From positions 1 through 35,425 of the forward strand of contig JAOZOU010000012.1 in the NCBI GenBank assembly GCA_029933125.1: 35,425 nt of DNA, written 5' to 3'. The notes beneath the pieces were generated by a model. That model ran no database searches. It was not told where the DNA came from and saw only the letters and a program-made list of their open reading frames with translations. The DNA comes from a bacterium. Lineage in GTDB: Bacteria > Arandabacterota > Arandabacteria > Arandabacterales > Arandabacteraceae. Positions within the stretch are counted from its first letter, which is position 1; the number at the start of each line of letters is the position of its first letter. Shown here piece by piece: positions 2,065 to 10,836 of this stretch. The translations under genes and the position numbers were made by a program.

Positions 2065-2651
2065 AGGCTATGAAGAAAGGTGATCTTGCTTACGCTTTGC
2101 GCCTCCTTGCTTCCGGGCAAGGTATTGTCGATGTCTGGAAGGAAGCAGGCTATAGTTCACGCAAGGAGCTTGCCGATGAGCTTTTCGCTTTGGCTGAGAA
2201 TCTTGAGAAGAAGGGAGTAAAGAAGAGCTTTAGGGTTATTGTCTATACCGATGGTGCATCGGCGGGGAATCCTGGGGAGGCAGGATGTGGAGCTATCGTA
2301 ACTGACGAGAAGGGTGAAGTACTTCTTGAGGATTACGCCTATCTAGGAAAGACAACCAATAATGTTGCCGAGTATCATGGGGCAATTCTTGGTCTCAGGC
2401 GGGCGCAAGAACTTGGAGCGACTGATGTTGAGCTGAGGCTTGACAGCAGTCTCCTTGCAAATCAGATTAAGGGAGGATACAAGGTCAAAAGCAGAAGGCT
2501 TGCTGGCCTCTACCAGGATCTTATGAGAATTGCGAAACAATTTGAATCACTTGAGGTTACATTAATTAAGAGTTCGGAGAACAGCCAGGCAGATCGTCTA
2601 GCCAACTTGGCCATTTCAACTCGAAAGCGAGGTGAGCCCGGAGCAGGCTAG
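2061..2651 (+). CDS. Ribonuclease HI family protein
   Basis: A 196-residue product with an RNase H fold. The catalytic acidic residues are in order: D64 (YTDGASAGNPG), E104 (NNVAEYHGAI), D128 (RLDSSLLANQIKGG) and D178 (QADRLAN). The enzyme cuts the RNA strand of RNA-DNA hybrids. About 55 N-terminal residues precede the fold, a basic region that may help bind substrate. The start is taken as GTG 2061, which overlaps the upstream TGA and has GGAAG five bases upstream; ATG 2070 is the alternative. The last codons and TAG stop (2637-2651) form the 5' strand of helix P1 of the RNase P RNA, so mature rnpB overlaps this reading frame. Confidence 0.9.
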   Translation: MKAMKKGDLAYALRLLASGQGIVDVWKEAGYSSRKELADELFALAENLEKKGVKKSFRVIVYTDGASAGNPGEAGCGAIVTDEKGEVLLEDYAYLGKTTNNVAEYHGAILGLRRAQELGATDVELRLDSSLLANQIKGGYKVKSRRLAGLYQDLMRIAKQFESLEVTLIKSSENSQADRLANLAISTRKRGEPGAG

Positions 2652-3014
2652 GTTGTCGCGTAGAGCTCAGCTCTGTGAGGAAAGTCCGAGCTCCGTAGGG
2701 CAGGGTGCTGGGTAACGCCCAGTGGGAGCGATCCCAAGGAAAGTGCCACAGAAAGTAAACCGCCAGCTATGGCTGGTAAGGGTGAAAGGGTGAGGTAAGA
2801 GCTCACCATTGCCTCCGGCGACGGAGGCAGATCGGCAAACCCCACCCGGAGCAAGACCGAATAGGGGAACAGAAGTGGCCCGCTTCGCTATGATTCCCGG
2901 GTTAGGTCGCTTGAGGTGCGAGGTAACTCGCATCCCAGATTAATGACACCACCGGCAGCGGGCTTGCGGACGGTCTTCTGCCGGGACAGAACTCGGCTTA
3001 TTGCCTGCTCCGGG
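2637..3014 (+). ncRNA. rnpB: RNase P RNA, bacterial type A
   Basis: The catalytic RNA that matures tRNA 5' ends. Helix P1 is 2637-2648 (CCCGGAGCAGGC) paired with 3003-3014. Conserved blocks appear in order: GAGGAAAGTCCG at about 2677, the P4 strand and following loop at about 2701-2722, ACAGAAAGTAAACCGCC at about 2748, GGTAAGGGTGAAAGGGTG at about 2776, and the 3' conserved block from AGATTAATGACACC through GACAGAACTCGGCTTA at about 2937-3000. A P18-like hairpin (CCGGCAG with CTGCCGG) lies between the parts of the last block. The overall arrangement is of the ancestral A type. I see no convincing promoter just before it, so it may be processed out of the upstream mRNA. Confidence 0.96.
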
Positions 3015-3033
3015 CGTCCGCTCACGATTTTGC

Positions 3034-9071: not shown

Positions 9072-9099
9072 TTGACAAGCATAGGATGTGATGTTAAAT
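9072..9099 (+). promoter_or_regulatory. Sigma70-type promoter for rplM-rpsI
   Basis: A perfect -35 TTGACA (9072-9077), a 16-base spacer, and -10 TTAAAT (9094-9099) preceded by TG. It lies just after the mtnA stop. It predicts an RNA start near 9106 and a leader of about 40 bases before the rplM ATG at 9147. Confidence 0.75.
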
Positions 9100-9146
9100 T
9101 GGTTCAAAGCACCTCTTTAGAGTGCCAAGAGCGTGGGAGGAGCCCA

Positions 9147-9574: not shown

Positions 9575-9964
9575 TTGAAGGTTCTTAGTCAGGCAACTGG
9601 TAGAAGGAAGGAGGCGGTTGCTAGAGTTCTCGTCAGAAAGGGTGAGGGCAGGGTTCTTGTCAATGGCAAGTCCCTCAAGGATTACTTCCAGAGAGAGGCT
9701 ATCGTTGTTCATGCTCAGGAGCCGCTAAAGGTCTATCCTTCTCCTGAAAAGGTTGACATCATATGCGATGTCAGGGGCGGTGGCAAAAGTGGGCAGGCTG
9801 GTGCTGTGAGGCTTGGCATAGCACGAGCGCTTGCCCTGATCGATCCGTCGCTCCATAAACCTCTTAGAGATGCTGGCTATCTTTCGCGTGATCCTCGCAT
9901 GAAGGAGCGCAAGAAGTATGGACAGCCTGGTGCGAGGAAGCGCTTCCAGTTCTCTAAGAGATAG
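9575..9964 (+). CDS. rpsI: 30S ribosomal protein S9
   Basis: A 129-residue product. It has the N-terminal ATGRRKEAVARVLVRKGEGRVLVNGK, GGGKSGQAGAVRLGIARAL, and the C-terminal basic tail RKKYGQPGARKRFQFSKR, whose last residues reach the P-site tRNA. The start is TTG 9575 behind GAGGGGG; the ATG at 9571 is out of frame and closes at once. It is cotranscribed with rplM. Confidence 0.96.
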   Translation: MKVLSQATGRRKEAVARVLVRKGEGRVLVNGKSLKDYFQREAIVVHAQEPLKVYPSPEKVDIICDVRGGGKSGQAGAVRLGIARALALIDPSLHKPLRDAGYLSRDPRMKERKKYGQPGARKRFQFSKR

Positions 9965-9977
9965 TGGTGAGTTCACA

Positions 9978-10061
9978 CATCTCCTGATTCCCCTTTCGGG
10001 TCTGAAGCTCGCTTCAGTTAAGGGGATATGAAGGAGATGGAGGTTTAACCCGAAAGAGAGG
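9978..10061 (+). promoter_or_regulatory. Structured rpsB leader with predicted pseudoknot
   Basis: Nested helices are visible: outer stem CATCTCCT (9978-9985) with AGGAGATG (10032-10039), middle stem TCCCCTT (9989-9995) with AAGGGGA (10020-10026), and inner hairpin CTGAAG (10002-10007) with CTTCAG (10012-10017), closed by the loop CTCG. The linker TCGGGT (9996-10001) is complementary to ACCCGA (10048-10053), just before the GAGAGG ribosome-binding site, giving an H-type pseudoknot. The pairing can grow by three pairs into the middle stem. Feedback control of rpsB-tsf by S2 through the rpsB leader is known in Proteobacteria. This element is likely its equivalent, which is inference. Confidence 0.7.
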
Positions 10062-10068
10062 TTAGAAA

Positions 10069-10836
10069 ATGGCATTAGAGGGCATCACCATGAAGAGCCT
10101 GCTTGAAGCAGGCGTTCAATTTGGTCATCAACGACGAAGATGGAATCCCAAAATGAAGAAGTACATCTTCGCCGAGCGCAAGGGCAACTACATCATCGAT
10201 CTTCAGAAAACACTTGAGTGCCTTGATGAAGCCCTTGAGGCGATCAAGAAATGTGTGGAAGATGGTCGGCTGGTGCTTTTCGTTGCCACCAAGAAGCAGG
10301 CAAAGGATGTTATTCGCGAGGAGGCACGTCGGTGTGACATGCCCTATGTAACTGAGCGCTGGCTCGGTGGCATGCTTACAAATTTCAAAACGATCCGCAA
10401 CAATGTTAAGCGCCTTGAGGAACTCGAGGCGATGGAGGCTGATGGTAGACTTGCTGCGCTTTCGAAGAAGGAAGCAACCTCACTTCTTAAAGAAAAGATG
10501 AAGCTTGAGAAGATCCTCGATGGTATCCGTAAGATGGATGTGCTTCCAGGTATGGTCTTCATTGTTGATACCCGGAAGGAAAGGATAGCAGTTGCTGAGG
10601 CAAATCGTCTTAACATTCCCATAGTTGGAATCGTTGACACCAATTGCGATCCCGATCCAATAGACTATCCAGTCCCTGGAAACGATGATGCGATTCGTTC
10701 GATAAAGCTTTTCGCCCGCGCCGTAGCCAATGCGATTATTGAAGCCAAGGGGATCAGCACCGAAGGTGCTTTCGAACCAGGTGTTGAAGAAGCCGAGATT
10801 GTGGAAGAAGCCGAGACATCTGAACAGCATGAGTGA
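10069..10836 (+). CDS. rpsB: 30S ribosomal protein S2
   Basis: A 255-residue product of standard length with [46 protein letters not shown] and [24 protein letters not shown]. The C-terminal tail is acidic ([18 protein letters not shown]). ATG 10069 follows GAGAGG. Expression is probably controlled by the structured leader immediately upstream. tsf follows after 17 bases, the usual rpsB-tsf pair. Confidence 0.97.

Follow-up and report, generated by a model that had tools for sequence, protein, structure and literature searches.

A pseudoknotted leader RNA upstream of rpsB in an Arandabacterota genome, with a possible kink-turn among its relatives

The region preceding rpsB in the window, by which we mean the whole analysed stretch of 35,425 nucleotides (contig JAOZOU010000012.1), very probably encodes an S2 (rpsB) mRNA leader that likely takes part in S2 feedback; we put the probability of this reading at about 0.87. 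The analysis established the structure, covariation, position and class identity of the leader, and by homology with E. coli S2 feedback is its likely function. The original prediction had already read the region as an S2 leader, and this was supported by the covariation of all helices and the pseudoknot together with reciprocal matches to the t44/rpsB families. The features, in window coordinates, are as follows.

9575..9964, + strand: rpsI (S9), the gene upstream of the leader (open reading frame)
9974..10055, + strand: S2 (rpsB) leader RNA, whole element (RF00127 30.5 bits, RF01815 24 bits, model R2 78.8, model R3 73.7)
9978..9985, + strand: P1, 5' strand, its last base a 3n-like position (fold, covariation)
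9986..9987, + strand: GA on the 5' side of a kink-turn-like tandem G-A pair (GA/GA in 73 of 100 leaders)
9989..9995, + strand: P2, 5' strand (fold, covariation)
9996..10001, + strand: pseudoknot 5' strand UCGGGU, the bulge between P2 and P3 (conserved core GGGU, 9998-10001)
10002..10007, + strand: P3, 5' strand (fold, covariation)
10012..10017, + strand: P3, 3' strand (fold, covariation)
10020..10026, + strand: P2, 3' strand (fold, covariation)
10027..10029, + strand: loop UAU ahead of the 3' GA (read either as 3 nt or as 2 nt with a U-U mismatch)
10030..10031, + strand: GA on the 3' side of that tandem G-A pair (comparison of leaders)
10032..10039, + strand: P1, 3' strand (fold, covariation)
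10040..10043, + strand: GAGG after P1, not the rpsB Shine-Dalgarno sequence (conserved, 75 of 100 leaders)
10048..10053, + strand: pseudoknot 3' strand ACCCGA (conserved core ACCC, 10048-10051)
10056..10061, + strand: GAGAGG, the rpsB Shine-Dalgarno sequence, outside the 6-bp pseudoknot (role inferred from its spacing to the ATG at 10069)
10069..10836, + strand: rpsB (S2) (open reading frame; 77-78% identity to S2 of order relatives)

The open reading frames on the + strand run in the order rplM, rpsI, a 104-base gap, rpsB, tsf, pyrH and frr, which are the genes we take these to be from their protein sequences; the rpsI product was presumptively named in the same way, with a C-terminal KRFQFSKR. 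The leader lies between rpsI and rpsB, directly upstream of the latter. Inspection by eye showed the end of rpsI directly ahead of rpsB, like in the window, at loci L002, L003, L004, L017 and L018, and an unrelated upstream region in place of the rpsI end at most other leaders. A promoter-like site (TTGACA, a spacer of 17, TAAATT, with a preceding TG) occurs at 9072-9100, one of seven such sites found where 5.2 are expected. Because this site precedes rplM, rplM-rpsI-rpsB-tsf may form one transcript with the S2 leader internal to it. The window also holds a class A RNase P RNA (2640-3015) and two tRNAs, Met at 1-77 and Val at 90-166.

P1, P2 and P3 together constitute the minimum-free-energy fold of the leader, which bears out the three helices that had been predicted beside rpsB. 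The helices are stacked, and an internal loop separates P1 from P2. With flanks included (9965-10090), none of 200 shuffled sequences folded as well (z -3.67). The 90-nt core alone showed a modest excess of stability (z -1.95, with 10 of 200 shuffles as good), and its single-sequence z-scores, which were not relied upon, were weak at -1.7 to -2.3. Because the core is weaker than the flanked fold, we regard the energy evidence as moderate and let the case rest on comparison. Two short sequences bordering P1 are conserved in nearly all leaders, CACAC before it (9974-9978) and GGAGG after it (10039-10043), and neither is the Shine-Dalgarno sequence of rpsB. Among 100 leaders GAGG also occurs as GUGG, GCGG, GAAG and GUCG.

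The reading of the stems as an attenuator or terminator of transcription between rpsI and rpsB draws on the stable G+C-containing stems of the intergenic stretch. These stems are followed by GGAGGUUUAACC rather than by a U run, no terminator-like site was found within 9978-10061, and in relatives, too, the knot sits immediately ahead of rpsB. We consider such a function extremely unlikely and rejected it for lack of a site within 9978-10061.

The comparison was carried out with three covariance models. The first, R1, was built from alignment A2, comprising the window and three relatives from its order or family with a complete leader. A search of 100 loci with R1 produced 43 matches at E≤0.05, all of them just upstream of rpsB by coordinates. 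R2 was built from these 43 and matched 68 of the same loci at E≤1. It recognized a single place in the genome that holds the window, the window leader, at 78.8 bits. Across 386 genomes, 373 of which have a detected rpsB, R2 found the leader in 120 genomes at 121 places (E≤0.1). Of the window's phylum, the whole-genome set contains 8 genomes, and nothing in a collection of named genomes exceeded 65% S2 identity. Of the 110 places examined in sequence (loci L136-L245), 103 are followed by S2, the remaining 11 places lie upstream of rpsB by coordinates, and all 111 places with E≤0.0022 directly precede rpsB. The seven matches with no S2 downstream (L236, L239, L240, L241, L242, L243 and L245) have E values of 0.0036-0.07 and are probably due to chance. 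R2 gave no leader match in 266 of the 386 genomes, where the leader class is missing or has diverged too far; by eye, some of these genomes look like carriers of diverged forms. The third model, R3, was built from alignment A7 (100 rows, from the genomes of the window search) and scores the window at 73.7 bits. Among loci L002-L030, 20 of 29 were matched by R3 at E≤1, more than before. Twelve contigs from a viral collection (L113-L124) encode an S2 protein, and these seem likely to be host DNA or prophage edges.

In a set of 193 genomes, the Rfam model RF00127 found 11 leaders and RF01815 found 1, versus 61 genomes for R2 at the same E cut-off as RF01815 (E≤0.01; a count from a table, taken to cover the same 193 genomes). 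The S2 feedback RNA thus extends well beyond what both Rfam models recover and, since these models recover few S2 leaders, annotation pipelines miss most of them.

Covariation was evaluated on A7, in which each of the 100 places contributes one row. All 23 of its 23 pairs change on both sides. Standard pairing was found in 90.4% of cells, against 55.8% with shuffled partners and 42-51% with slid partners, and two-sided changes occurred in 858 cells versus 265 after shuffling; fitting A7 to the model structure makes it lean towards that structure, and common descent is not accounted for in the permutation tests. Two-sided changes are nevertheless hard to explain by alignment fitting alone. The innermost pair of P1 fits poorly, being non-standard in 62 of 100 leaders. 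Within the phylum, where four sequences could be compared, two-sided changes were seen in 6 of 25 pairs.

For the pseudoknot a partner-swap test was used instead of column counting, because the pseudoknot tail has indels in A7. Bulges paired with their own tails far better than with tails swapped from other leaders (n=99, z 7.5, 0 of 3000 permutations), also when swaps were confined to GC strata (z 6.1, 0 of 3000), and five control segments of the same leaders gave z values of -0.9 to 1.1; like the covariation counts, these permutations take no account of descent. The pairs found across leaders include GGGU/ACCC, UGGU/ACCA, CGGU/ACCG, GCGU/ACGC, GAGU/ACUC and UGUU/AACA. Covariation in the helices and in the pseudoknot, proposed beforehand as the way to check the structure, was thus observed for every helix and, with z 6.1 to 7.5, for the pseudoknot.

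The predicted pairing of TCGGGT with ACCCGA is present (9996-10001 with 10048-10053), but it ends two bases before GAGAGG and not right before it. Its GGGU/ACCC core (9998-10001 with 10048-10051) is the sole part of the pseudoknot kept in the three near relatives. An extension to 9 bp, for which two alternative folds had been proposed, deserves separate consideration. The 9-mers at 9993-10001 and 10048-10056 are indeed complementary, and the longer pairing reaches the first G of GAGAGG. It uses C9993, U9994 and U9995, i.e., the three inner P2 pairs, so that a switch between two states with different access to the ribosome-binding site could be envisaged in which the longer pseudoknot opens the inner part of P2. 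In a simple model without pseudoknot terms, the duplex energy goes from -8.5 kcal/mol for 6 bp to -12.9 kcal/mol for 9 bp, while freeing the strands costs 5.4 and 12.2 kcal/mol, respectively, relative to the unconstrained fold; the gain from the extension is therefore smaller than its cost in this estimate. A run of 9 was found in 1 of 99 leaders, that of the window, and non-cognate combinations of bulge and tail reach 9 in 0.8% of cases; in the near relatives L002, L003 and L004 the longest runs are 4, 5 and 4. The overlap with the middle stem is thus formally there, but the two folds proposed from it found no support: a switch of this type is very unlikely, and the 9-bp pairing was rejected as a conserved feature since it occurs at about chance level and no second fold is conserved. 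What is conserved is a core of 4-5 bp, and the additional pairs are about what chance provides.

Access to the ribosome-binding site could also be controlled by masking, if the AACC of the tail paired with GGUU at that site unless the pseudoknot formed, which would expose or hide the site. The predicted fold of the window does pair UUUAACC with the GGUUAGA region, and 10060-10065 is mostly paired in the ensemble of that fold. Across 99 leaders, however, the tail pairs with its own downstream region no better than with those of other leaders (z -0.15 and 0.21); the pseudoknot, unlike this pairing, passes the own-partner test. Masking is therefore unlikely; what speaks for it comes from the window's own fold, and it was not retained as a candidate.

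The internal loop between P1 and P2 has a distinctive composition. Tandem G-A pairs and a 3-nt loop next to two helices correspond to the kink-turn consensus. In A7, both strands of this loop carry GA in 73 of 100 leaders; none has it on the 5' strand alone, 8 have it on the 3' strand alone and 19 have neither (Fisher p 2e-14, uncorrected for descent). For 61 of these 73 GA/GA leaders, the longest P2 is obtained when 3 nt are left as the loop ahead of the 3' GA. Alignment A6, with 68 rows that include the named genomes, has GA/GA in 32 of 68, 27 of these with 3 nt. Judged from their sequences, relatives of the leader likely carry a kinked-helix (kink-turn) motif, and the poor innermost pair of P1 can be read as the 3n-3b position of a kink-turn. 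Loci L137 and L139 are what we take to be textbook cases. In the window's phylum, GA/GA occurs in the window, L003, L004 and L017, and not in L002. The loop of the window itself is ambiguous: a 3-nt register gives a C helix of 5 bp with a G-U pair, and the best fold instead leaves 2 nt and a U-U mismatch. No report of a kink-turn in an rpsB leader was found in the literature searched, a selection that does not cover key E. coli studies.

We tentatively propose, at slightly less than even odds, that the S2 leader is an ancient autoregulator, very widely shared among bacteria, that exists in two architectures. In many lineages a kink-turn between P1 and P2 would bend the stem, bringing the bulge to the tail and so building the pseudoknot, while the form of E. 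coli, the species in which the control was studied, is without the kink-turn. If so, the RNA recognized by S2, or by a kink-turn binder, would be bent in a way that is not seen in the E. coli model. Should the kink-turn form, it would offer a concrete, testable feature for how S2 recognizes its mRNA; S2 is a late-binding protein whose rRNA sites, in the part of the source available to us, are described as not obviously resembling the leader (Meyer et al. 2009, PMC2704228). A kink-turn in the S2 leader is worth a test.

In E. coli, where S2-mediated control rests on experiment, excess S2 represses rpsB-tsf via the leader, with S1 needed for the full effect, and the Shine-Dalgarno site lies outside the S2 operator; the available portion of the same source calls the mechanism of S2 control unclear even for E. 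coli (PMC10931766). A further paper, as far as its accessible text goes, deals with rpsB mRNA decay in Staphylococcus and has no bearing on the leader (PMC4608709). By analogy, a regulatory scheme for the window can be sketched. The bulge between P2 and P3 pairs with the tail just after P1 and thereby makes the element a compact knot, which likewise stops short of the Shine-Dalgarno sequence, by two bases. S2 present in excess over 30S subunits would bind this leader, probably helped by S1, and the bound protein might stabilize the knot beside the Shine-Dalgarno site and block or trap the 30S subunit. If initiation on rpsB were blocked in this way, expression of tsf behind it would be expected to fall as well, as in E. 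coli. Because the Shine-Dalgarno sequence lies outside the conserved pairing, steric blocking or 30S trapping is likelier than masking by base pairing.

The relation to known S2 leaders was examined with Rfam. No match at the window leader was obtained at gathering level. At a lax threshold, t44 (RF00127) fell on exactly the leader stretch with 30.5 bits (E 4e-4) and rpsB (RF01815) on the same stretch with 24 bits (E 0.03); 18 loci from relatives gave three t44 matches, all sub-threshold. Because both window scores are below the gathering scores (44 bits for RF00127 and 40 bits for RF01815), the leader is not filed under either family. In the opposite direction, R3 matches the E. coli K-12 leader, annotated as tff/T44, with E 5e-11, so that t44 recognizes the window (E 4e-4) and R3 recognizes E. 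coli. By this reciprocal similarity, which is not a phylogeny, the window leader and its E. coli counterpart fall into one RNA class. Both have their parts in the same order: CACAC, P1, P2, a bulge (GGGGU in E. coli), P3, GGAGG and AUAACCCC. They differ in the loop between P1 and P2, which in E. coli, by eye, is GGCA opposite G and lacks the GA/GA pair, and in the upstream gene, which is map on the other strand in E. coli, whereas rpsB of the window comes after rpsI.

Meyer et al. (2009, PMC2704228) describe their rpsB motif, in the part of the paper available, as having P1, an optional P2, P3 and a junction that forms a pseudoknot with a 3' extension. Its hosts there are Alpha-, Gamma-, some Beta-, Delta- and Epsilonproteobacteria, Cyanobacteria and some Firmicutes, and in several of these groups P2 is missing or very short, the form lacking it being described for Cyanobacteria, Firmicutes and most Gammaproteobacteria. 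The window leader resembles this motif in lying upstream of rpsB, in its long P1, which leads into a junction bearing P3, and in the junction strand that pairs with the 3' extension after P1. P1 and P2 of the window together correspond to Meyer's P1 and the bulge to J2-3, and the window leader is the form without the side stem that those authors call P2. It differs in its score below the RF01815 gathering score, and the accessible part of the motif description makes no mention of a kink-turn (PMC2704228). The leader (rplJL) for L10 offers a parallel only: it too is a ribosomal protein leader, with a kink-turn recognized by its protein according to the portion of the source available (PMC10931766), but protein, gene and fold are different. 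The suggestion that the leader of this lineage could be a new version holds for the phylum as far as could be seen, but not for the class, which together with its pseudoknot was already described in 2009 from Cyanobacteria and some Firmicutes as well as Proteobacteria (PMC2704228). The window leader is thus a member of a known S2 leader class in a lineage that is, as far as could be seen, new to it.
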